From Argopecten irradians (Eukaryota > Mollusca > Bivalvia > Pectinida > Pectinidae): DNA of 64,000 nt. Where the stretch lies: contig NC_091138.1 in assembly GCF_041381155.1 (NCBI RefSeq), forward strand, positions 31,241,604-31,305,603. The letters are read 5' to 3'. The notes below the pieces were generated by a model, which did no database searches, was not told where the DNA came from, and worked only from the letters and a program-made list of their open reading frames with translations. This document shows, in pieces, positions 3,901 to 55,625 of the stretch. Made by a program: the position numbers and the translations under genes. The stretch's first letter is position 1. The number at the start of each line of letters is the position of its first letter.

Positions 3901-6880
3901 TTCTCTCCATTTCAGCTGTTACAATTAAATATTTTGTTTAATATTGTCCTAACTGCTATAAGATCAATTACCTTGTATAGATCTGAGGGCTCCTTCATGG
4001 TGGATGGTAGTGGGGGCAAGCCCGGAAGGCCCCTTGTTTTACTGCAACTTTGCACTGGAGTTTCAACATACTGAAAAATAGCAAAAGTGAATTCACAATA
4101 GCTCAAGATAGATTTCTGCACATCTATAAATACAGTTAACTACACATATATCCAAGATTGAACAGACAATCAACTTAATTTTATTTTTTTCTTGTTATAC
4201 GTAATACATAAACTGATCTATAATTGTAACACATATATATAAAAAAAAAAGGAATTTTACATCATCTTCATATGTTTCTGAAAATGAACAATCATTAGTA
4301 AACGAATCAGTAAATACACTTAACAACGATTTAATTTCTCTGTCTCAGTGGGCAAAACGATGGCTTGTCACATTCAACGCACAAAAACCTGAATTTGTAA
4401 TTATCTCTAAAACAAGATTTGTTAAAGATGCTCCACCGCCGACAAATAGTATTTTTTCACTATCAAAAACAGGAGCAGACGATTTAGTATTTTTCTTCAG
4501 TTACAAAAATTACTTACTTTACACCATTACCACCATTGAAAAGTTGGAGCTTCTAATTCTACGTCAAGTTAAAAATATGAAAAATATTTAATTGCATCCC
4601 GAAAAAATTCCAACACACTATATTCTATATGGAATGAAGTATAGATTGCGTATGCACCAAAGGCAAAATGAAGATATATATATTATTTTTGTGTTAATTA
4701 GACATACATACACACGATTGAACACCAATTATTGTTCAAATAATGAATATCATTCATTCTCTGTCAGCGGTGGAGCATCTTTAATAAACCTAACCTTCTA
4801 CTTAATAACATTCCGATTAAACATGTAATAACCATAAACATCTGGGCATATTTCTATCTGGTAAACTTAGCTAGCATTCTCACATCTCAGAAATTGTAGC
4901 CAAAGCCAACAGAATATTAAATATCTTACAAGCATTAGCTTATATTATCCCGCGTTCATGCCTAGAAACACTATATAAAACTATTGTAAGATCGGTTATG
5001 GAATATGGCAATATTTTATTTGATAATTGTCGTCAGCAAGAGTCTGACCTTATTGAAAGTGTTCAGCGTAGGGCGGCATTAATATGCACAGGTGGTTATA
5101 AGGTAACCAAATATACTAAACTGTTGGTTGAATTGGGATGGGAAAAACTAAGTGATAGACGAAAAAATTGCAGACTAAAAATGTTATTTAAAATTAAGCA
5201 TGATCTGTGTCCACCATATTTGAAAACTATCTGTCCAATTCAGACTCATAGAACACAAAACTACAACTTTAGAAATTCAAATACTATTCTCCCTATCCTG
5301 TCAAGAAAATCTTTCTATCATCAATCCTTCTTTCCAAAATCAATACACGACTGGAACAATCTACCTGACACATTAAGAAATATCTCTTCACTAAGTCCTT
5401 CTCTCTTGCACTGTCAAATATATCCACTTCACAAAAAATCTTTTTATATACATATGGACACGGGAAAGGTAAAATTAATCACACTAGAATAAGAATGGGA
5501 TTAAGTGCTTTAAACAAACATAGACATTCTTATAACTTAACCAATAACAAATTCTGTGACCTTTGCATGAACTCCTCCGAAGATGAAATTCATTTCTTTT
5601 TACGTTGTCAAAAATATAACAGAATCTGTTCCAATATGCTCCGCACTATTTGTCATATATTCGCTCCAAACATCAATTCAAACCTCATTGTAGAGCTCAT
5701 GCCAAATGTTCTTGTCAAAATAATTTCATTTGGCTTACTCTAAACGAAATTGAGAACAAAGCATTATTTGACCATGTATTTAAATATATAGTAAATTCAA
5801 ACAGATTCTGACCCCCCCCCCCCTTCCTCTCTCTCTCTCTCTCTCTCTCAGTCCCCCCCCTCTCTCTTTCTCTATCTCTCTCTCTCTCTAAAGTATGTAT
5901 GTGTGAGTGTGAGCGTGTGCGACATTTGTATGTCTTTTGTGTAATTGTACATATTTTTTGTTTGATATATGTTGAGGAGAATATCTAGTAGCCTTCGGGC
6001 AGTTTGTAATCCTCGTGAAATAAATAAAGAATTAAATTAATAATATGAGTAAACGAAAAGTTTGTATATCATCATCAGGACCCCAATCCAAAAGACCACA
6101 TATGTAATCACCATATGACAGCTTGGAGAATATGCACAAGAGAGCAACCAGATTCATATTTTCAACTTATTAAAAAAAATACAGCTCCTTCAACCTTGGC
6201 TCTTGAACTATAAACACCTTACATGCATACTAAAGTACAATATTTTAGAACAAAGAATTATCTGGAAAGAAAGTTCATCCTATAGCCATTTCAGACACAA
6301 CTTTCTTATAGTCATTAAATCAGATTCAAAACTCAGTTGGCAATGCACATTTTCCACATTCATTTCATTTGATGCCACGACCAAATCTTGCTGTAACTTA
6401 TTTGTTTCAATAGAGGAGAATAATTGAAGTGAGCTAGGATACCCATGTGCAGGCAAACCTGGCTATGGGTTGTGTATGCAATGATTAGTACTTCAAGACT
6501 TTGACACATCTGGTCATGTCTTACTTAAAATTTTAGTCTCAATATATACATTGTATATGCTTGATGAATCATAACTAAACTTAGATGAAACTAGTCCTCT
6601 AACCAAATTAAACTTTTCAACTTGTATCCAATATGTTTGTTTACCTTTGTCAGAGAATCAATCCTCTAAAATGCAATGTAAACGACTTCTATATATAGCT
6701 ACGAAGTTGTAACTAGGCCTAATGATAAATACCTTAGGGCATCGGTGGCGATAGCAACACATCAAATAGAAAATTATCAAAGTCGATAGTAAGATGAAAG
6801 AAAATGGAATTGGTAGTTGGAGACATATGCAAATTAAACTAGGTTATTAAATAAGATACCTTTGCTCTTTCCATTGCCAT
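993..6880 (-). CDS. Unrecognised ~193 aa hydrophilic protein, 5-6 exons
   Basis: Gene reconstructed on the minus strand from GT-AG sites with compatible phases: exons 6880-6860, 4070-3972, 3176-2993, 2693-2585 and 2035-1876. The ATG at 6880 is in a good context (AAAATGG). The N-terminus reads MAMERAK followed by YVETPVQSC. Later stretches are rich in Pro, Ser, Thr, Lys and Glu: LPGLPPLPSTMKEPSD, KYHRTPSES, KEENGVNGVNG, and a C-terminal PPSRPMTPTEQMDIMLAIEE. I see no signal peptide, membrane segment or catalytic motif; the protein is probably soluble and partly disordered, with a possible short helix near the end. It could end by read-through of the last donor (AVSL-stop) or by splicing to 1001-993 (LL-stop). 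Either way it is about 193 residues. The gene lies head-to-head with PFDN1. I do not recognise the family. The exon structure is well supported; the function is unknown. Confidence 0.7.
1115..1345 (-). repeat. tRNA-derived SINE, antisense
   Basis: Read on the minus strand this is a degenerate tRNA-like head (GTTAAGTTGTCCC, then a box-B-like GTTTGAATCTC). It is followed by the GGGGCAGTTGCC body and the tail that appears on the plus strand as TTAGTTTAACGTCC. The same family occurs at 2410-2535, 13750-13960 and 63590-63985. The open frame through it is not a gene. Confidence 0.75.
1411..1504. repeat. Short foldback with perfect 20-bp arms
   Basis: AAGCATTATTCTCAATATCT at 1411-1430 is exactly reverse-complemented at 1485-1504, separated by about 54 bases. 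This could be a MITE remnant or hairpin element. No flanking duplication is clear. Confidence 0.7.
1876..2035 (-). CDS. Exon 5 of the unrecognised minus-strand gene
   Basis: The acceptor is TTTAATAG before 2035 and the donor is GCT|GTAAGT at 1876. It begins in phase 2, completing a Gly codon, and encodes HKNGMNGYEVLPDIQDLPP and then TPTEQMDIMLAIEEE. If the donor is ignored, a stop follows four codons later. Confidence 0.7.
2410..2535 (-). repeat. SINE fragment, antisense
   Basis: It contains TTAATCTAATGTCCTATCAA and, further on, AAACCACCGACCAG, both matching the antisense SINE at 63.65-63.73 kb. It sits in intron 4 of the minus-strand gene and is degraded, with no recognisable tRNA head. Confidence 0.6.
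2585..2693 (-). CDS. Exon 4 of the unrecognised minus-strand gene
   Basis: The acceptor is TTTCAG before 2693 and the donor is AATGG|GTAAGT at 2585. Phases fit both neighbours (1 in, 2 out). It encodes SKGSMGSPRSNAIARAK and then an acidic, Asn/Gly-rich end. Confidence 0.72.
2993..3176 (-). CDS. Exon 3 of the unrecognised minus-strand gene
   Basis: The largest exon, 61 codons plus one base. The acceptor is TTTTTACCAG and the donor AGAA|GTAAGT. It encodes IVLRNSEHPPIMKGTSWTL and then a Ser/Thr-rich and basic stretch ending KLNRSKTR. Basic and serine-rich content suggests a phosphorylatable linker, but no family is recognised. Confidence 0.75.
3825..3910 (+). repeat. Degenerate tRNA-like SINE head
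   Basis: GATAGCTCAATCGGTATAAC resembles a tRNA D-arm and box A. A weaker box B (GAGTTAAGCCC) follows about 45 bases later. The stem pairs poorly, so it is more likely a SINE head than a functional tRNA gene. This family differs from the SINE at 13.75 kb. Confidence 0.4.
3972..4070 (-). CDS. Exon 2 of the unrecognised minus-strand gene
   Basis: Exactly 33 codons, phase 0 at both ends. The acceptor is TATTTTTCAG and the donor AAG|GTAATT. It encodes a proline-rich segment around LPGLPPLPSTMKEPSD and ends LYK. Confidence 0.72.
4426..4780 (+). mobile_element. TTAA-type MITE inserted in the LINE
   Basis: Inverted termini AGATGCTCCACCGCCGACA and TGTCAGCGGTGGAGCATCT match at 18 of 19 positions. TTAA flanks both sides (4422-4425 and 4781-4784), as expected for a piggyBac-type target duplication. 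There is no coding capacity. Relatives lie at 24.48, 30.50, 36.84 and 54.39 kb. Confidence 0.85.
5811..5890. repeat. Poly(C) and CT microsatellite
   Basis: A C run is followed by CT dinucleotide repeats interrupted by another C run. It lies in the 3' UTR of the LINE copy. Confidence 0.9.
6110..6430 (+). mobile_element. Possible decayed LINE fragment
   Basis: A frame near 6130-6160 reads NMHKRATRFIF, resembling the VQRRATRF motif found after the reverse transcriptase in several LINE clades. The rest is broken by stops. Weak support. Confidence 0.3.
6860..6880 (-). CDS. Exon 1 (start) of the unrecognised minus-strand gene
   Basis: ATG at 6880-6878 encodes MAMERAK, then the donor AAG|GTATCT, phase 0, matching phase 0 of exon 2. 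The upstream context CTCAAAATGG is a good start site. A second ATG two codons on is an alternative. First exons this short need transcript support. Confidence 0.55.
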
Positions 6881-16700: not shown

Positions 16701-19700
16701 CGCTATAGCTCCGGATACGTTTTGAAGCGTTGCTTCAAAAAACAAAGATGGCGTCGTGAAAAGAAACGAGTGCGCATCTTTTTCTGGCGGTTAATATTTT
16801 GCACTGTCAAAAATACACATCACCCTTTGCTAGGGGATTGCTATGAACGTGTCTATTGTCTCCTATTGTTATAATGCTAACTGCCGTGTGATAGTGTAAA
16901 ATACCAAATATCTCTCGACCAATCAGAATGCAGGATTCTCACTTGAGGTCTTATAATAATCAGTATTACCAATCTGTTCAGGACAATATATTTTAGTCCA
17001 CAAACTTTCATGTACATTTTTAGTGTTCAACCAATATCAAAAGTGCAAACTATATACTGATGATTTTTTTTTTTAACTCATAAGATGTCAAACCATTTAC
17101 ATGTACTAAACCCATTATGTGTAAGGTATCATGAGAAAATGAGGTACTGTAAACCAATATTCTTTTGTGTGCAATTTATTTTCACAAATTTTGTGATTGA
17201 AGTAAATTCCAAAATTCCCAGTTTATCTCTACATATTGATATTTACCTAATTGATTCTGATAGTAATTTTCGAACAATTTTTAAATCCGCAAATATTAAT
17301 CTTCACAAACTTGTTTTGAAATGAAATTCGCAAAATTTAGTAGCCACGAAAGAACATTGGTTTAAAGTATATGAAAGGAAATCGCATGTAAATTATCTCC
17401 AAACTTATATCAAGGACGTATATGAGAAGGATAAGTCACACTGGGCTTTTTTTTTTTTTTTTTTTTCCAAACAATGTTTTAACAAAGACTACATTTGCCA
17501 CATATACATGCACATTACTTCCATTTCCTTCCATTCTGGCATTTTCCTCTCATACACTAGAAATTACATTGTTATTTATTATTATTTATGAAAAGGGGGC
17601 AGGGGGTAAGAGAAAAAAAAACAGATGGGGAGGGGGGAAGGAGGTAAAGGGGGATAAAGGTATGAAGAGGGATGGTATATAAACTAGTAAATAAACAATT
17701 AACGTAAGAGATAGAAAAGGGGGAAATAAAGGACAGAGATGGATATCACTTCACAGATCTATACAAATGTATACATAGTGCAAGCATGACACATGGAAAA
17801 AAACATGTATAAATAACTATTTTATTTCAATTTAAAATATGGACAAACTGTCAGGGGTTTGCAAGTTCCACTAGTTTTAACCATTTTTGCCAATCTTTAT
17901 TGAATCTATTAATTTCTTTTTCTCCTTTACCAAAAGCTATATACTTTTGAACATAGTAATACTCTTTAATAGAGTTTAAAAAAGCTGTCACATTTAATGA
18001 ACCATGTAAGCATCTAGTTTTGTAAATATAATGTTTAATATAAAGAACAATTTCATTATCAATCCTATGATATATACAATTTTGATCTAGTTTCCCAAAA
18101 AGCATAGTTTCTTTATTAATAGCAAAAGGAATAAAAAGAATATCCAAAAAATTTTCAAAATTGACTAAAAAGTTCTGAACTTCAGAGCATTCCCAAAAAA
18201 GATGTGTGATTGTCTCCCTTTCTAATGCACATAACATACAGTGAGGATTATTTGAAAGACCAATTTTACAAAGATATGTATTAGTTGTTAGAATATGATG
18301 GGAAATTCTGAACTGAAGCCATTGAAGTGTAGTATTATTAGTAGTCATGAAGGGTTTTGGGGACGTACAACCTAGGAGCTTTTGTGTTTGTGCACTGACC
18401 ATGACGTTGGGCAACGACTGATTTTCCTTTGATATTCCCTGGTGCAGCCTTTGATGTAGCTTGCGGATGCGAGGGTTACCGTCTTACATTCTGAAGCGGA
18501 ACATCATTTTATGAGCTGTCATATTTTTGAACGAAAATTTAAGACATGTCTTCTTAATCTTCCTTCCTTAAAGCAAGTAATAAACATTGTGAAATTTAAT
18601 AAACTTTACATTTGACAAGATAATACAAGTATTTGTTGAGAAAAATGGTTTTTATTCCCGGTTCATAGGCGTCTCTCATGGTGTTTAGTAGTGTAAAGAG
18701 ACTGACGAATCCATTAAATAACAGCATGATATTGAGGAAAGATGGAAGTAAAACCTACACATTTCTTTTTGTTTACAGGTTCATTTTGCAGTCAATTCCA
18801 GATATTCAAAAGAATTTACAGCTTAAAGTGAAGGCTTCAGAGGACAAGATGAAATCTCTAGAGGTATAATATTAAGATTTTATACAGTAAGATGAAATCT
18901 CTGGAGGTATATAGTATTTATAGTGTTTTATACAGTGAAATGAAATCTCTAAATGTATCTAATATTTAGTGTTTTATACAGTAAGATGAAATCTCTAAAG
19001 GTATATGATATTTAGTGTTTTATACAGTGAGATGAAATCTCTAAAGGTATAAGATATTTAGTGTTTTATACAGTAAGATGAAATATCATGAGGTATAATA
19101 TTTAGTGTTTTATACAGTAAGATGAAATCTCTAAAGGTATAAGATATTTAGTGTTTTATACTGTAAGATGAAATCTCAAAATGTATATAATATTTAGTGT
19201 TTTATACAGTAAGATGAAATCTCCTGAGGTATAATATTTAGTGTTTTGTAAAGTAAAACAAGGTCATAATGAAACCCTGGGGACCAATGAAATTACTTCA
19301 ATATCATCTTAGTTTGTTATAACTAGAAATAACTGTATAGAAATCTTGATGGGGTTGAGAAGTACAAAAAAAGTACTTTAAGCATGACTTTGTTGTAAAT
19401 GTGTCTGTTATAAATATGTTATACTGTATCTGGTTATTTAGGTGAAATGTTTTAGAAGTAAATAATTTTACCAGACGTTTTGAAAGGGTCCTTCACTTTC
19501 GAGATACCAAAATGACATGAAAAGTACAATTTACTGTTGATTTGTTTCACCTTTCGCTGATTCAAAAATCACTTCAAACTATAATTTCACAATTACTAGG
19601 AGATGGGACTATATATCTAGCTAATCTACAGTAAATTCATCCTCGATACTCCAGTTGTTATATGCACCCCTAGACTATCTCATCGTAAAACTGGCGGCAG

Positions 19701-21870: not shown

Positions 21871-24007
21871 AGCTCACCTGGTCTGAAGGACCGAGGTGAG
21901 CTTATGGGATACCGCAGCGTCCGGCATCCGTCAACAAGTGACTGGTAGCATCCTTATGGGCTACTAACTGAAATTGTACAAATGATGGGGCCTGAGTGGC
22001 GGGGCCAAAAGGGGTCAATTTGGCTATTTCCATATAAATGACTTCTTCTCTGAAGCTAAGCATGAGATAGCACTCATAATGCAATGGTAGTATCGTTATA
22101 GGGTGGGGATTCAAATTGTACAAAAGATAGGGCTGACCCCCGTGGGGCCTGAGGGGCGGGGTCAAAGGGATCAATTTGGCTATTTCCATATAAACAACTT
22201 CTTCTCTGAAACCAAGCATGGGATAGCACCCATAATGCAATGGTAGCATCCTTATAGGGTTGGGATTCAAAATTGTACAAATGATCGGGCTGACCCCCCA
22301 GGGCCTGAGGGGTGGGGTCAAAAGGGGTCAATTTGGCTATTTCCATATAAACAACTTCTTCTCTGAAACCAAGCATGAGATAGCACCCATAATGCAATGG
22401 TAGCATCCTTATAGGGTGGGGATTCAAAATTGTACAAATGATGGGGCTGACCCCCAGGGGCCTGAGGGATGGGGTCAAAAGTGGTCAATTTGACTATTTC
22501 CATATAAATGACTTCTTCTCTGCAACTAAACATGGGATTAGGCTCATAATGCAATGGTAACATCCTTATAGGTTTGGGAATCAAAATAACCCAGAGTACT
22601 GATATTTGGCCTGTAGCATGCCAGGATGAAGGGCTACTAAGTTTGTTCAAGTCAATGATCTTGACCTTCATTTAAGGTCACAGGGGTCAAATAGGCTAAA
22701 AATCCTTTAAACAACTTCTTGTGAATAACTAAGAGGCCTGGAGACCTGATATTAGACCTGTAACATGCATGGATGAAGGGCTATCAAGTGTGATTAAATG
22801 AATGACCTTGATCTTTATTCAAGGTCGAAGGGGTCAAAAAGGCTAAAATCTTTAAACAACTTCTTCTCTCAAGACCCAGAAGGCCCAGGGTACTGATTTT
22901 TGGCCTGTAGCATACTGGGATGAAGGGCTACTAAGTTTGTTCAAGACAATGACCTTGATAATCATTCAAGGTCACAGATGTCAAATAGGCTAAAATCTTT
23001 AAATGACTTCTTCTCAAGAACCAAAAGGCCCAGGATACTCATATTGAGTCTGCAGCATGCTGGGATGAAGGGCTATCAAGTTTGTTCAAATAAATGACCT
23101 TGACCTTCATTCAAGGTCACAGGGGTCAAATAGGCTAAAAAAATTAAACAACTTCTTGTGAATAACTAAGAGGCCTAGAGACCTGATATTAGGCCTGTGA
23201 CATGCTGGGATAAAGGGCTATCAAGATTTATCAAATCAATGACCTTAATCATCATTCAAGGTCACAGGGGTCATATAGGCTTGAATTTTTAAACGACTTC
23301 TTTTCAAGAACCGAAAGGCCCAGGATACTGATATTAGGCGTGTAGCATGCTGGGATGAAGGGCTACAAAGTTTGTTCAAATGAAAGACCATCACCTTCAT
23401 TCAAGGTCACAGGGGTCAAGTAGGCTTAAATCTTTAAACGATTTCTTCTCAAGAACCAAAAGGCCCAAGATACTCATATTTGGCCTGTGACATGCTGGGA
23501 TAAAGGGCTATCAAGTTTGTTCAAATCAATGACCTTGATCTTCATTCAAGGTCACTGAGGTCAAATAGGCTAAAATCATTAAACGACTTCTTCTCAAGAA
23601 CCGAAATGCCCGGGATACTCATATTGGGCATGCAGCATGCTGAGATGAAGGGCTACCAAGTTTGTTCAAATGAATGACCATGACCTTCATTCAAGGTCAC
23701 AGGAGTCAAATAGGTTAAAATCTTTAAACGACTTCTTGAGAATAACTAGGAGGCCTATAGAGACCTGATATTGGGCCTGTATCATGCTGGGATGAAGGGC
23801 TACCAAGTTTGTTCAAATGAATGACCTTGATCTTCATTCAAGATCACAAGGGTCAAATATGCTATAATTTTTAAACGACTACGTTGTATTGTGCTAATAG
23901 TCAGATGACCGGTAAGGCCCTTGGGCCTCTTGTTCTAATTGTCAGAGTATTTGTGATAAATACTAAAAAAACCAGGTGAGCGATAAAGGCCCTCTGGGCC
24001 TCTTGTT
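21871..24007 (+). mobile_element. Helentron-like (HINE) element with two internal satellites
   Basis: The 5' end AGCTCACCTGGTCTGAAGGA can fold (AGCTCACC...GGTGAGCT). The 3' end has the inverted motif CAGGTGAGCG, then a hairpin GGCCCTCTGGGCC and a TCTTGTT terminus; a related terminus also occurs at about 23933. This asymmetric layout matches Helentron-type non-autonomous elements. Inside are about four ~170-bp units (21.93-22.57 kb) and then about nine ~145-bp units with TCAAGGTCACAGGGGTCAAA (22.6-23.9 kb). The long minus-strand frames here are repeat translations, not genes. Confidence 0.75.
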
Positions 24008-36839: not shown

Positions 36840-37222
36840 AGATGCTCCAACACTGACAAATGGTATTTTTTCTCTATCAAAAACAAGAGCAGACCATTAA
36901 GAATTTTCTTCATTTAGTTAAGTTACTTATTTTACACCATTACCAACATTGAAAAGTTTGATCTTTTTATTTTACTTCAAGATAAAATTTAAAAAAATAA
37001 TTAATTGCATCCCGAAAAAATCCGTGGCACTATGTCCTATATGGAATGCAATACTAATTGTGCATGCACCGAAAGCAAAATAAACTATTTTACAAGTATA
37101 TTATTTTTTGTGTTAATCAGACATATTTACACCATTAAACACCAATTATTGTACAAATAATTAACACCAATTATTGTACAAATAATTGGTATCATTTATT
37201 CTCTATCGGCAGTGGAGCAACT
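36840..37222 (+). mobile_element. AGATGCTCC MITE, full-length copy
   Basis: Starts TTTAAGATGCTCCAACACTG and ends CAGTGGAGCAACT followed by TTAA. A roughly 25-base internal duplication (ACACCAATTATTGTACAAAT) lies at 37138-37187 and is unique to this copy. Confidence 0.8.
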
Positions 37223-37639
37223 TTAACTCTTACCGGTCGCTGTTCTACCGCCATAATAACAACATCTTCAATCACAATTGAGAGAAAAAAAATAAATGAA
37301 AGGTACAAAAGTAATATAACCATGTTCTCTTAGAAAAAATAACATAATAGCGAAAGCTTCATTGTTCATGTAACAGGTCAACAGACCGAAATGAGAAAAA
37401 AATGTTTGTCATCCTTAAAGGGTAACGATGTCTTATTAAATATGCATCTCTTTGATCCGCTTGTAGTTTTCCTCCACATATAATTTCAGTCTTTAAAACT
37501 CACCATTCTCTGATGGTTGGTGGTCATACCGTTCGTCGGAGATTACTGAGATACAATGGACGCTTCTTCTTGTGTAGCTGGTTGTAACGGTATGGTTACT
37601 CTGCGATTTCCTGCGTTTTAACAGGACAGACTGAATTAG

Positions 37640-40530
37640 GGAAGTGTGCTTTTCCAGGTTGTATTCTGTCGTGACTTGAAAGAGTCCAAAGTTTTCGCGT
37701 TGATCACCGTAGATGATAGATTGATGCAGTTTTCAATGACACGGTTCGAAAACGAATTTTCACACACCTTTATCTGTTTCTAAAACTTTTTTTTGTATTA
37801 GCTTGCTTCCATGTCCTCTAGTATTTTTATCATTTCGTCTTAAGACTTTATCTGGAATATTGTTTACTGTTCCGTTGCAGATCTTGAATAAGTGTCAGCT
37901 ATAAGACTTTATCTGGAATATTGTTTATTGTTCCGTTGTAGATCTTGAATAAGTGTCAGCTATAAGACTTTATCTGGAATATTGTTTACTGTTCCGTTGT
38001 AGATCTTGAATAAGTGTCAGCTATAAGACTTTATCTGGAATATTGTTTACTGTTCCGTTGTAGATCTTGAATAAGTGTCGGCTATAAGACTTTATCTGGA
38101 ATATTGTTTTCTGTTCCGTTGTAGATATTGAATAAGTGTCAGCTATAAGACTTTATCTGGAATATTGTTTACTGTTCCGTTGTAGATCTTGAATAAGTGT
38201 CGGCTATACGACTTTATCTGGAATATTGTTTTCTGTTCCTTTGTAGATCTTGAATAAGTGTCAGCTATAAGACTTTATCTGGAATATTGTTTACTGTTCC
38301 GTTGCAGATCTTGAATAAGTGTCAGCTATAAGACTTTATCTGGAATATTGTTTATTGTTCCGTTGTAGATCTTGAATAAGTGTCAGCTATAAGACTTTAT
38401 CTGGAATATTGTTTACTGTTCCGTTGTAGATCTTGAATAAGTGTCAGCTATACGACTTTATCTGGAATATTGTTTACTGTTCCGTTGTAGATCTTGAAGA
38501 AGTGTCGGCTATAAGACTTTATCTGGAATATTGTTTTCTGTTCCGTTGTAGATATTGAATAAGTGTCAGCTATAAGACTTTATCTGGAATATTGTTTACT
38601 GTTCCGTTGTAGATCTTGAATAAGTGTCGGCTATAAGACTTTATCTGGAATATTGTTTTCTGTTCCGTTGTAGATATTGAATAAGTGTCAGCTATAAGAC
38701 TTTATCTGGAATATTGTTTACTGTTCCTTTGTAGATCTTGAATAAGTGTCAGCTATAAGACTTTATCTGGAATATTGTTTACTGTTCCGTTGTAGATCTT
38801 GAATAAGTGTCAGCTATAAGACTTTATCTGGAATATTGTTTACTGTTCCGTTGTAGATCTTGAATAAGTGTCGGCTATAAGACTTTATCTGGAATATTGT
38901 TTTCTGTTCCGTTGTAGATATTGAATAAGTGTCAGCTATAAGACTTTATCTGGAATATTGTTTACTGTTCCGTTGTAGATCTTGAATAAGTGTCAGCTAT
39001 AAGACTTTATCTGGAATATTGTTTACTGTTCCTTTGTAGATCTTGAATAAGTGTCAGCTATAAGACTTTATCTGGAATATTGTTTACTGTTCCGTTGTAG
39101 ATCTTGAATAAGTGTCAGCTATAAGACTTTATCTGGAATATTGTTTACTGTTCCGTTGTAGATCTTGAATAAGTGTCGGCTATAAGACTTTATCTGGAAT
39201 ATTGTTTTCTGTTCCGTTGTAGATATTGAATAAGTGTCAGCTATAAGACTTTATCTGGAATATTGTTTACTGTTCCGTTGTAGATCTTGAATAAGTGTCA
39301 GCTATAAGACTTTATCTGGAATATTGTTTACTGTTCCGTTGTAGATCTTGAATAAGTGTCGGCTATAAGACTTTATCTGGAATATTGTTTTCTGTTCCGT
39401 TGTAGATATTGAATAAGTGTCAGCTATAAGACTTTATCTAAAATATTGTTTACTGTTCCGTTGCAGATCTTGAATAAGTGTCAGCTATAAGACTTTATCT
39501 GGAATATTGTTTATTGTTCCGTTGTAGATCTTGAATAAGTGTCAGCTATAAGACTTTATCTGGAATATTGTTTACTGTTCCGTTGTAGATCTTGAATAAG
39601 TGTCAGCTATAAGACTTTATCTGGAATATTGTTTATTGTTCCGTTGTAGATCTTGAAGAAGTGTCGGCTATAAGACTTTATCTGGAATATTGTTTTCTGT
39701 TCCGTTGTAGATATTGAATAAGTGTCAGCTATAAGACTTTATCTGGAATATTGTTTACTGTTCCGTTGTAGATCTTGAATAAGTGTCGGCTATAAGACTT
39801 TATCTGGAATATTGTTTTCTGTTCCGTTGTAGATATTGAATAAGTGTCAGCTATAAGACTTTATCTGGAATATTGTTTACTGTTCCTTTGTAGATCTTGA
39901 ATAAGTGTCAGCTATAAGACTTTATCTGGAATATTGTTTTCTGTTCCGTTGTAGATCTTGAATAAGTGTCAGCTATAAGACTTTATCTGGAATATTGTTT
40001 AATATTCCGTTGTAGATCTTGAATAAGTGTCAGCTATAAGACTTTATCTGGAATATTGTTTACTGTTCCGTTGTAGATATTGAATAAGTGTCAGCTATAA
40101 GACTTTATCTGGAATATTGTTTAATATTCCGTTGTAGATCTTGAATAAGTGTCAGCTATAAAACATTATCTGGAATATTGTTTAATATTCCGTTGTAGAT
40201 CTTGAAAAAGTGTCAGCTATAAGACTTTATCTGGAATATTGTTTATTGTTCCATTGTAGATCTTGAATAAGTGTCGGCTATTTCACGTCTTTACTCTGAA
40301 GATGGTAAACTAAGGCTTTTAAGACATTCCTTGTTGTTAAGATCCCAAAGTTCTGACACAATTCTGGTGGCACGGCGTTGTACATATATACATCTCTGTC
40401 TTTCTTGAAGACAGGAATCAATCAGATGCACAGTATTCAAGATGCGCTCGTGCAAGCTGAGTAAAATATTCTTATACTTGTAGAAAGTTTTAGATATCAG
40501 ACCTTTTCGCCTGTATGTTATGAAAGACAT
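37640..40530 (-). mobile_element. LINE ORF2 C-terminal fragment split by a tandem array
   Basis: Read leftwards on the minus strand, 40530-40297 encodes a post-RT region: RAHLEYC, YVQRRATRIVSELWDL, then ECLKSLSLPS. The right edge of the array continues RHLFKIYNGTINNIPDKVL. The left edge of the array continues PDKVLRRNDKNTRGHGSKL and, after a frameshift in an A8 tract near 37795, ENSFSNRVIENCINLSS and NAKTLDSFKSRQNTTW-stop. This order (RRAT, KI.NG, NTRGH..KL, FS.RV, NAKTL.SFK) is the usual LINE C-terminus. The RT core is absent. Confidence 0.85.
37839..40281. repeat. 61-bp satellite array, ~40 copies
   Basis: Strict 61-base period (each 60-base line shifts by one). The unit contains AAGACTTTATCTGGAATATT, GTTCCGTTGTAGATCTTGAA and AAGTGTCAGCTAT. 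Variants: GTTTACTG / GTTTTCTG / GTTTATTG, GATCTTG / GATATTG, CAGCT / CGGCT. A seven-unit block recurs. On the minus strand one unit encodes LFKIYNGTVNNIPDKVL of the host LINE. Confidence 0.97.
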
Positions 40531-41638
40531 TAACATTTGATAAAGTCAATCAATTCTTTACCCATAATACTATCCATCAAACCGTAAGTAAAGATAATAG
40601 TGTGGGTACACATCGGTAGATATGAAATCACATTAGGGCATATACAATGACAAAAATCAAACAACAGCAACAAAAATGAAGCAATATTGCCATACTTAAT
40701 ATGTGGCTTATCGGAAATTGGCTTTCTATAAGTTGACAACTTGCTCCCGAACCCAATGTATATATCAAATACAACCAAATGCATCAAAATTAAATATGTT
40801 TCCCTTAAATGGAGTAAGGGTACACAATTCAATAACATTTCTTTCATAAAGACCATGATACATGAAGTTTTGAAATCATGATATACCCTTTAATCAATGC
40901 TGTATGGAACTTCATTTGTCGAAATAAGTTGATGCGCCAAGTAAATTCGTCAGTGATGCAACGTGGTCCGTAATGGCAAGTTTAAAGACGGGTCAAACTT
41001 AGAAATAGACCAAACGAACGAAGTTATATTTAACCTGTTAGTGTGTAGAAAGGAAAGGCTTAAAAGCAAATAATCAGCCAGATGTCAACATTTACTTCTA
41101 CATATCTCCTTTCACCTAACAATCAGCGTACGATAAACCATTTCGTTGATGCTTTCATATCTGCATGTGTGTGCTGAAATAATGAGTGATAATAATCAGA
41201 TGCCAATGGCTGGAAATACTCTAAAATAAAGTATATATTGTTATAAGATGTCCATCGTTGAATGCTTGTAAGTCTGATGGCATATCAGCTACAGATTCCG
41301 TATGTCTGCGTTAAAAGGGGAGTTGGTAAATCTACCTCATCAACCTTCGGGAATTACATTATAGAAAGAGTGCAAACCAAGTGTGTTGCATACGATTGTT
41401 ATATACCACCCGGTAATAGATATTCAGTCAATCATGGTTCTGTCACGCCTAGACACAATTTGCCCCGACACCGGGCGGTATGCTTGTCATTGACACCCAG
41501 TTAATGCTATATAGTTTCGTAGGCAGTCACCCGTACGTCTTACTAAGCCACGGTGAGTGTGGGTCGGTGGCAGAATTTCTCTTCCTTGTGTTAGTAACGG
41601 GTGTGGACATATAGACCATTCCATTGATGCTGACCACA
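40531..41638. other. Region upstream of the lectin gene
   Basis: Must contain the promoter and 5' UTR of the C-type lectin gene near its right end. No TATA box is obvious. The open frames at 40856-40530 (minus) and 41262-41504 (plus) show no recognisable domains. Confidence 0.4.
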
Positions 41639-50600: not shown

Positions 50601-53600
50601 AGTGTACCGTTATACGGCTCTTTTGATGTACATCAAAGGACTAAATTACCTGTTCTATTCTGTTGCCTCCAGTTTTACGATGAGATAGTCCAGGGGTGTA
50701 GAGATCGTAAGTGATCGGAACCCCTGGAGTATAGAGGATGACCTTGTAGAAACTCCCCGGACTTTCCCGGAGCCAGTCGTATTTTTTCTTTCCGATTGGT
50801 CCATTTTTGTTCTTCGGAACAAATCAGTGCGAAAACAAGAAATAGTTGATGCCATCCTCGATACTCCAGGGGTTCCGATCACTTACGATCTCTACACCCC
50901 TGGACTATCTCATAGTGAAATTGAAGGCAGCTCAGCTGAAAACATTTGACCAATCACAGGCCAGCAAAGATTTCCTTTGAAGACTACAGAGAGAGCGACG
51001 CCTAACATCAAAGCCACACAGTCAACCAATGTGTACCGTTATACGGTTCTTTTGATGTACATCAAATGATTAAATTACTTGTTCTATTCTGTTGCCTCCA
51101 GTTTTACCATGAGATAGCCCAGGGGTGTAGAGATCGTAAGTGATCGGAACCCCTGGAATATCGAGGATGAGTTGATGCATGACTATCATTTACGCAATTT
51201 CCTATGTGTCATTTATTGTAGGATGGTTCCGAATAAACTGTTCTGCAAATTTGTGAACGCAAAGAAATTATCTCCGCATTTAGTGTATATATCAATAATT
51301 TTGTTCCATTTGTAGGTGCTGCTTGCCACGCCTTTCGTTGAAGCCCAGTTTTCTCTCACCTGTCCAACAGGTAAGTAATACTCCTTAGGACAATGATCCA
51401 AATCAATATTGATGCAGGGTATAGGTCTGATCATTCTTTTCCAAAGATTGTTTTAAAATGTAATGAATTCAAAAAAGGTAAAGGGCTAAAAAGGGTAAAA
51501 TTTAACAACTCATTCATACATGATCAAGAATATTTGAACCTGGTAAATAATACAATTAAATAATACAATTAAATTGGTGAAAGCACAGTACTGTTTGCCA
51601 ATATATAATCTTGACTCTATTGATAATATTCAGGATAGCAGCCTACAATTTATAATAAATGATCAACTGTTTCTTGAGACACTTTTAATGGAAATAAGAG
51701 GAAGAACAATATCTTATTCATCTTTTAAAAAGAAACAAAAGAATTTAAGAGAAAACAATCTGAAAGAAGATATAAGTAAACTTGAAAATCAAACTGCTGT
51801 TGATATAGATCTAGATGAATTGAATTGAAAAAAAGAAGGAATTAGAAGAGATTCGGTTGGAAAAACTTAAAAGTAGTGTAATTCGGTCAAAAGATTTATG
51901 GATAAAAGAAGGGGAAAAGCATACTGCAATATTTTTTAAATATAGAAAGTAGAAATTATGTATCAAAATTTATTCCAAACTTGAGAAAGAAAATGGAGAG
52001 TTTATCACTAATCAAGATGAAATTCTTAGTGAAGTTAAATCCTTTTATGAACAATTATACTCTGTTGACAAGAACATTGAGGAAGTAGATTTAGAAGAAT
52101 TTAAAAAGGTTGTGAAGTTCCAAAATTAAATAATACAGAATCTTCGAGTATGGAGGGTCAAATAACGTTTGAAGAAGCATCAACAACTCTTAAAAATATG
52201 AAAAATAATAAAAGTCTGGGATCGGATGGATACACTTCAGAGTTTTTCAAATGTTTTTGAAGTAAAATGGGGCTTTTCGTTGTTTGTTCTATTAATTATG
52301 GGTACTTAAATTGTCAACTTTCAATTACACAACGTCAGGGCATTATCACCTGTATTCCAAAGCCAAACAAATCAAGATACTGTATTAAAAACTGGCGTCC
52401 AATTTCTACATTGTATATAAAATAGCTTCTGGACCAATAGCTAACAGGATTAAAAATATTTTGGGTAAAATTTTAAATTCAGACCAGACAGGTTTTATTT
52501 CTGAACGATATTTAGGAGAAAATACAAGATTTATTTATGACATGATGCAATACACTGAGGAATATGATATCCCTGGAATGTTGTTAATAATTGATTTCGA
52601 AAAAGCTTTTGACTCCGTTTCCTGGAAATTTATTGATAAAACTCTGAAATACTTTTATTTTGGAAATAGTTTAAGAAATTGGATAAAAGTTTTACATCAT
52701 AATGCTAGCTCTGCAATTAATCAAGGAGGTAATTTGTCTTCATTTTTTAATATTATGCGCGGTTGTCGTCAAGGCGATCCAATCGCCCCTTATATTTTTA
52801 TCATCTGTGCAGAAGTCTTAGCTACTCGTATTAGAAATAACAGAAACATTGTTGGTATAAATATAGAAAATTGTAGTATTTTAAATTCTCAATATGCTGA
52901 TGATACTTCTCTAATACTTGATGGATCTGAAAACTCTTTGAAGGCAGCTGTTACAGAATTAAATAGTTATGCCAAAATTTCAGGACTTAAAATAAATAGT
53001 AAAAAAGTAGTGATAAACTTATTCCGAGCTTGAACTTGCAATGGGGAGTTACTAAATTTACACTTCTTGGTATTGACTTTCATGTTGATCTTCATAAAAT
53101 ACCAAAATTGAACTTTGATAAAAACTTTAAAAAAATGTTTGTATTAAAAAATTTAATACAAACATGGAACAAAAGGAAAATATCTCCTATTGGTAGAGTG
53201 TGTATCATAAAATCTCTCTTAATTTCTCAGTTAAATCATCTTTTTATTTCACTTCCAAATCCAGATGAAAATTTTGTAAAACATCTTAACACAGTTCTTT
53301 TTAATTTTCTTTGGAATAGCAACTCAGATAAAGTTAAGCGAGATGTAGTTATCCAGAATTATATAGATGGAGGTTTGATAATGATTCATCTTTCATCGTT
53401 TATAGACTCGTTAAAGATAGGATGGATAAGAAGAATTTTTAGATCAACTGGTAAATGGCAAATGATTCTAAAAACTAAAGTAAACTTTCTTCATTTGGCA
53501 AACTGTGGAAGTGAATATCTAAATAAAATTTTATCTAATTGTAAGAATGATTTTCGGAAGGGTGTATTTACAGCATGGTTCAAACTAAGATTAAAGGATA

Positions 53601-55625
53601 ACCAATTAGAAGCGGAAAAACACTCTGTTTTTAAGACACCAATTTGGTACAATAAAAACATTATTGTTGGAAATAAAACGATTTTCTACCAATCATGGAT
53701 TAGAAAGGGAATTTCAATTATACAAGACCTGTTAAAAAAAGACCTGTTACCACCAATCTCTACCATTACCTTACCGTACCATCAATCTCTACCATTACCT
53801 TACCGTACCAAAAATCTCTGCTATTACCTTACCGTACCAAAAATCTCTACCATTACCTTACCGTACCAAAAATCTCTACCATTACCTTACCGTACCACCA
53901 ATCTCTACCATTACCTCACCGTACCACCAATCTCTACCATTACCTTACCGTACCACCAATCTCTACCATTACCTTACCGTACCACCAATCTCTACCATTA
54001 CCTTACCGTACCACCAATCTCTACCATTACCTTACCGTACCACCAATCTCTACCATTACCTTACCGTACCACCAATCTCTACCATTACCTTACCGTACCA
54101 AAAATCTCTGCTATTACCTTACCGTACCACCAATCTCTACCATTACCTTACCGTACCACTAATCTCTACCATTACCTTACCGTACCACCAATCTCTACCA
54201 TTACCTTACCGTACCACCTTACCGTACCAACAATCTCTACCATTACCTTACCGTACCGACAATCTCTACCATTACCTTACCGTACCGACAATATCAATAA
54301 TTATATTAATACATGTACCCTACCAAATTCTACTAGAAGCTTGCCATCTCAAGGAATATATTTAAATTAAACTTTACAATTATCTCAAAGATGCTTCACC
54401 GCTGAGAGGCCATAAACGATACTTACTACTAAGACAATAATTGGTGTTTACCCATGTACATTTATGTCTAATTAAGACAAACAAATGATATAAAATAACT
54501 GTTTTGCTTTTTTTGAATGTGCAATCAGCACTTCATTCCAAAGAGGGCATATTGTCATGGACTTTTTTTCGGGACTCAATTTTGTTCAATATTTTTATCT
54601 TGAAGTAAAATAAGAAACTCAAACTTTTCATTGGTGGTAAAAGGGTAAAGTAAGTAAATTTTTTAACCGAAGAAAAATACTTATTCGTCTGCTACTGATT
54701 TTGATTACCGTAGCATATCTTGGTTATTCTTTCGATAACTACCACTCTCCAATACCGCTCCAATATCTACCAATTACCTACCAAACGTATCGTACTATCT
54801 TTCTAGTATCACTCAATTCCACCAATCTCCGATATCAGTCAATTATACAAAGTTACTTTCCTTACGATCTCTAAATTCAAATTTCATTTTGATTTCTATT
54901 TCAGGCTACCAGATGAAGGATACGTACTGTTACAAGACAGCGTATACCCCGTTAAACTGGTATAAGGCCTCCGAAGCATGTCAAAGGTAGGTATATCTTT
55001 CAAGGACTTTTGACAGGTATTCTTTGTTTTACTTTTTTTTTTTATTCATGACCATTACCCTAGATTAACTTGCAGGTGTTGGGTACATACATCCTTTGGG
55101 TGTTTTGGTCCATGTTTCAGACATTTCCCATTCACCCCTTAAAATCATAATGGGCTCTCCTAGCCTTTGAATTAGAAGAGTTCAAATGCGTCTTCAGTGG
55201 TCACAAAATGTTTAGAATCCGAGGTTTACTGAGGGTTTTTACCACAATTTGTGATCCCGATGGAGCACGTGTAAACGGGCTCCATTATCATTATACCCTC
55301 ATAACCTCAACAAAAAATAAAAATGTATTCCTTATTTTTACAGTTTTTTCACGTAAATGAATATTATTTATTCTCGCGGCAGTTGCATATCTTTTATCTA
55401 AAATACCCATATTTTTCCTCTCCCGTCATCGTCAACGAATTCGACTGAACAGCTGATTGGAATCGAATCATTCATATGTTCCCACCAAAAATGGGGTCAT
55501 GGCCCCACGTTGCTACGCCATCGACTATTCCCGTAACAATAGAATCTGTCCTATCATTATACACTGATAATGATAATACTAGAAAGCATGATTATTGAGT
55601 CCATGTCAGTGCAAACTGTAAATAT

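Follow-up and report, generated by a model that had tools for sequence, protein, structure and literature searches.

A 61-bp minisatellite private to one locus of the scallop Argopecten irradians, very probably grown in place from a dead LINE copy

Main finding

A single 61-bp stretch of a dead LINE copy in the scallop Argopecten irradians has very probably been amplified where it lies, by a duplication followed by growth in blocks of units, into a tandem array of 40 copies. The window, i.e., the whole stretch of 64,000 nucleotides that was analyzed, holds both LINE flanks of this array. In-place amplification of one LINE segment, as proposed by the first-pass annotation, is borne out by the collinear flanks, by paralogues with one unit and by the absence of the unit elsewhere in the genome at up to three mismatches. 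Two parts of that annotation had to be given up. First, the reading frame in which the array arose was no longer a working one: a frame-shifting deletion is present in 40/40 units, so that the LINE copy had died before. Second, the array is private to a single locus, and satellite in the genomic sense is the wrong term for it.

Location and classification of the array

The array occupies positions 37841-40281 of the window (TRF: period 61, 40.0 copies, 95% matches) within the 3' portion of a minus-strand LINE ORF2. In the minus-strand phase ATAGC...GTCTT, it consists of 40 whole units, or 2440 nt, plus one base common with the flank, in agreement with the earlier description of a 61-bp unit in about 40 copies. 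The mean pairwise difference among the monomers is 3.98%. The features of the locus are as follows.

40282..40509, minus strand: right flank, LINE ORF2 upstream of the unit, from the VQRRAT motif on, with a stop codon and a frameshift
37841..40281, minus strand: tandem array of 61 bp x 40 with 15 distinct monomer sequences, homologous to the LINE ORF2 segment downstream of the reverse transcriptase (RT) core
40221..40281, minus strand: array copy 1, on the LINE 5' side, containing the peptide RHLFKIYNGTINNIPDKVL except for one base
37842..37902, minus strand: array copy 40, adjoining the left LINE flank, with a junction ambiguous by 1 bp
37648..37840, minus strand: left flank, LINE ORF2 downstream of the unit, reaching near the protein end, with a frameshift

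As a tandem repeat derived from a transposable element, the array has a monomer homologous to part of such an element, and the segment is single-copy in other copies of that element. Minisatellites have units of about 10-100 bp and arrays of 0.5 to tens of kb, and the array, at 2.44 kb in 40 units of 61 bp, lies within this size range. Satellite DNA in the genomic sense comprises abundant arrays at many loci or long heterochromatic blocks; here, all 39 of 39 matches to a unit pattern fall into one array. An array private to one locus does not qualify as genomic satellite DNA, and the term satellite is too strong here; single-locus minisatellite is the fitting one. It is apparently without function. 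As the unit length of 61 is not divisible by three and repeated units run into stops, the array cannot have belonged to a working ORF. A search of the window against Rfam at gathering thresholds gave no matches, nor did a 30-nt unit pattern against viral and prokaryote contigs.

LINE flanks and class of the element

To avoid circularity, the HMM used for the flanks was restricted to outside proteins: it was made from 17 outside LINE homologues, without window sequence, and searched against the six-frame window. Three matches, all on the minus strand, were obtained at the locus: in the right flank (40413-40300, 26.1 bits, model 40-77), from the last unit into the left flank (37891-37784, 20.8 bits, model 90-125) and in the left flank (37770-37648, 33.0 bits, model 128-168). 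Given this order, the model passes collinearly through the right flank, one unit and the left flank. Ten triplet-shuffled windows, searched as a control, gave top matches of 5.0-7.9 bits, and an extra right-flank piece (40468-40427, 7.4 bits) is at noise level. The top match in the window is another LINE relic (4947-5393, 57.9 bits). With one unit, the RR and TRGH codons lie 89 nt apart, whereas they would be separated by 28 nt with zero units and by 150 nt with two; the same interval spans 31-36 codons in the 17 outside homologues.

The first-pass annotation had quoted LINE peptides at both edges of the array. Its left-edge reading stands, with PDKVL within the last copy and RRNDKNTRGHG within the flank. 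On the right, the quoted RHLFKIYNGTINNIPDKVL runs from 40276 to 40220, inside array copy 1, and is therefore uninformative on the flank; the true LINE reading there uses another frame, VQRRATRIVSELWDLNNKECLKSLSLPSSE-stop-RRE, and is interrupted by a stop and a change of frame. The conclusion itself holds, on other evidence.

The LINE read-through piece, used as a protein query, gave 15 matches of 36 candidates (best E 1.8e-13). Two further outside proteins (969 and 950 aa) have endonuclease and RT domains; P0016 and P0017 carry PF03372/PF14529 plus PF00078 and match the C-terminal segment. Full-length relatives holding the C-terminal segment thus combine endonuclease and RT, as APE-type LINEs do, and we take the element to be of this type, from a large family related to CR1/Jockey-type elements. 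In the window copy, nothing but the part following the RT core remains. In a protein search of the scallop's own genome (150 scored of 1135 candidates), at least 13 rows lie in open frames of more than 900 aa. When the LINE protein was compared with viral contigs, 15 stretches matched and none was confirmed.

Several other features of the surroundings were seen. By eye, the left junction seems to carry a perfect palindrome of short length, and both flanks seem to have a short word in common; no conclusion rests on either. A dispersed repeat at 37000-37227 adjoins the LINE relic and recurs in at least 39 other genomic places with 80-86% identity (40 scored of 3811 candidates); a 25-bp tandem duplication (37138-37187) lies within it.

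Unit and LINE copies elsewhere in the genome

The searched assembly of A. irradians amounts to 846 Mb (845,758,899 bases) in 1508 contigs, with the window at C5:31241604-31305603; some stretches read N, and the searches cover the remainder. A 46-nt unit pattern with up to three mismatches had 39 matches genome-wide, all of them in the array (39 of its 40 copies), and its reversed control had none; at this threshold, the unit was not found elsewhere in the readable assembly. The left flank with one unit, used as a DNA query, led to three candidate loci, namely the array, a copy on contig C16 (73% over query positions 12-159) and a locus on contig C7 that matches 48 bp of the flank alone. The C16 paralogue aligns through flank, unit and flank with one unit (184/268 positions identical, 69%) and has 7 extra nt exactly at the deletion predicted by frame analysis, as well as smaller length differences. 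No genomic copy more than 80% identical across the site was found; with the nearest site-spanning copy, that on C16, at 69%, the original sequence at the breakpoints can be reconstructed only with uncertainty.

LINE copies were then compared at the point of the array by a profile count, which replaced a regular-expression count of spacing that had caught 5 of 36 loci. The profile count covers 37 loci, with stops written as X, at 34 distinct places (three are represented twice). The domain spans the segment in 35 of the 37 loci (36 rows), each time with 33-36 codons, i.e., one unit; the minus-strand row of L046 and L058, a locus included on other grounds, are weak among these. The remaining two, L021 and L053, are frame-broken and not spanned by the profile, and DNA alignment gave one unit for each. 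An array at this LINE point is thus absent in 37/37 loci (35 by domain, two by DNA), and carriage of the array by the LINE family is rejected on the one-unit paralogues measured. TRF reported arrays with a period of at least 20 in 9 of the 37 loci; that of L048 falls outside the stretch matching an intact relative, and none of those in L021 overlaps the aligned LINE stretch. The first-pass annotation had suggested a search of the genome for LINE copies with one, two or more units, and one unit was found at the measured loci; neither of the outcomes it had named as contrary to in-place origin, a LINE family lacking the segment or arrays occurring widely away from LINE sequence, was found.

Among the five closest of the copies compared, the spacing is 35 codons, or 105 nt, in L054, L055 and L056 and 36 codons in L057, which has broken frames; L053 was not measurable. 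The window spacing of 89 nt equals these 105 nt minus two deletions of 7 and 9 nt. All six genomic copies aligned as DNA have one unit. At the first deletion site, four of the six are 7 nt longer than the window and L053 and L057 are longer by a net 4 and 5 nt, and at the second site all six are 9 nt longer.

Deletions and the death of the LINE

The frame-shifting 7-nt deletion lies well inside the unit, and the start of the unit with its flanking sequence is found in 40/40 copies. The deletion therefore predates the amplification, and the LINE copy was already dead at the first duplication, which rules out birth of the array in an intact reading frame. The 9-nt deletion ends near the unit edge. 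The last 12 bases are identical in 37 of the 40 copies and differ by substitutions only in copies 2, 30 and 34; since this deletion is so near the unit end, it can be placed before the founding duplication with less certainty than the 7-nt deletion.

Founding junction and growth

Microhomology at the founding junction is 1 bp, which is too short for homologous exchange or ordinary direct-repeat slippage. This favors end joining or template switching as the route of the founding duplication, with the reservation that later changes in the flanks could have erased part of a microhomology that was originally longer. DNA folding of the unit, of two units and of both edges gave z from -0.19 to 0.65, so that the breakpoints are not explained by a hairpin.

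None of the 39 pairs of adjacent copies is identical; identical pairs make up 7/35 at a distance of 5 units, 7/33 at 7 units and 7/21 at 19 units. The longest repeated block of monomer types comprises 5 units, a length attained in 6 of 2000 shuffles. Such repeated multi-unit blocks suggest later unequal exchange. The mean number of changes from the consensus is 2.6 in the first five copies, 1.3 in the middle 30 and 1.0 in the last five; with the first five the most divergent and the last five the least, only the right edge shows the decay that an old edge should have.

The proposed history would begin with insertion of the LINE at the locus and its decay, in the course of which, as comparison with the paralogues shows, it acquired the stop, the frameshifts and the two small deletions after the RT core. 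A 61-bp stretch with the deletions may then have been duplicated head to tail during replication or repair, at breakpoints with 1 bp in common, as the junction suggests. From two copies on, unequal sister-chromatid exchange or slippage of multi-unit blocks would have brought the array to 40 copies, as the repeated blocks of monomer types indicate.

Alternative explanations

The present structure alone would look identical if RT had slipped during LINE copying, so that the element already contained the array on insertion and only its other parts decayed, with the units kept similar by unequal exchange. We nevertheless consider this highly improbable, because the frame-shifting deletion in 40/40 units means that the template would already have been dead, and none of the 37 loci has an array at this point. 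An origin outside the LINE copy, with a pre-existing satellite or a circle of units entering through homology with the segment, is equally improbable: a circular intermediate re-entering the same LINE would give the same structure, but the unit was not found elsewhere in the 846-Mb assembly at up to three mismatches, and the query of unit plus flank led, apart from the array, only to the one-unit C16 copy and the 48-bp flank match on C7. An imported satellite was accordingly rejected as a candidate on the unit-pattern search (39/39 matches in the array).

The copy number of an array can be collapsed or expanded in any assembly, and this general tendency is what speaks for misassembly as the source of the repeat count or of the array itself. 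Against it, the array holds 15 distinct monomers in non-random order, four of the eight single-occurrence monomers lie within the first six copies, and the region (37001-41000) is free of any N; an artefact thus has a minimal probability, below that of either alternative above. Growth in place from the dead LINE segment is retained as the preferred reading.

Other repeats in the window

A 29-bp array on the plus strand (53748-54292, 16.2 plus 2.7 units) starts at the end of another LINE match (52323-53743), whose frame continues open across the array to 54370; by eye, its unit does not look LINE-like. The C-terminal relic of another LINE of the same broad class (4821-5399, plus strand) was matched by 11 of 37 outside proteins. 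One of the window's other LINEs, used as a protein query, gave 20 relatives. Two adjacent arrays that differ in period, 157 bp (3.8 copies) and 145 bp (8.9 copies), occupy 21987-23880. A 46-bp array at 18846-19256 also scores at period 136; about 430 bp from it lies a LINE fragment (17851-18414, minus strand) that carries a zf-RVT domain. At about 54900-54985 (plus strand), there is a short reading, YQMKDTYCYKTAYTPLNWYKASEACQ, which presumably resembles a C-type lectin exon.

Significance and comparison with known systems

Later homogenization usually removes the traces of how a satellite or minisatellite was first duplicated. In this one genome, the single-copy relatives can be read together with both flanks, the founding junction and a deletion that precedes the array. 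LINE insertion, death, near-homology-free duplication and block growth can therefore be put in sequence, and this sequence can be tested in other scallops. A broader reading, which we offer as tentative and rather doubtful, is that decaying LINE relics are a steady nursery of locus-private minisatellites, founded by near-homology-free end joining, with homology serving later growth only. With almost no homology at the founding, most such arrays would stay private and never become satellites, and the scallop locus would be a case in which the succession of events is still legible.

A literature search, in sources available in part, found no report of this scallop array, which is weak evidence of absence. 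End joining and non-allelic homologous recombination are among the mechanisms proposed, in the available part of PMC12628747. Minisatellites from Alu, B1 or LTR elements are on record and, as far as the available text of PMC6947457 describes them, share with the scallop array short units taken from part of a transposable element; the scallop array differs in having a LINE coding segment as its source and a founding single-copy state that can be inferred. The satellite-like arrays of the Pacific oyster Helentron are likewise short arrays tied to a bivalve mobile element, but the Helentron, in the portion of PMC7492417 consulted, spreads its arrays through the genome, whereas the scallop array sits in a dead LINE copy and is found nowhere else. 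Satellites derived from LINE ORF2 include PROsat (Phodopus), Pvc 20 (seal) and chicken HinfI/CR1, whose monomers, according to the accessible part of PMC9659126, also match part of a LINE coding region. These are named genomic satellite DNAs, whereas the scallop array occupies one locus, where both flanks can be seen along with paralogues of one unit and deletions that are older. The scallop array thus clearly exemplifies a process already known, and its record is unusually complete.
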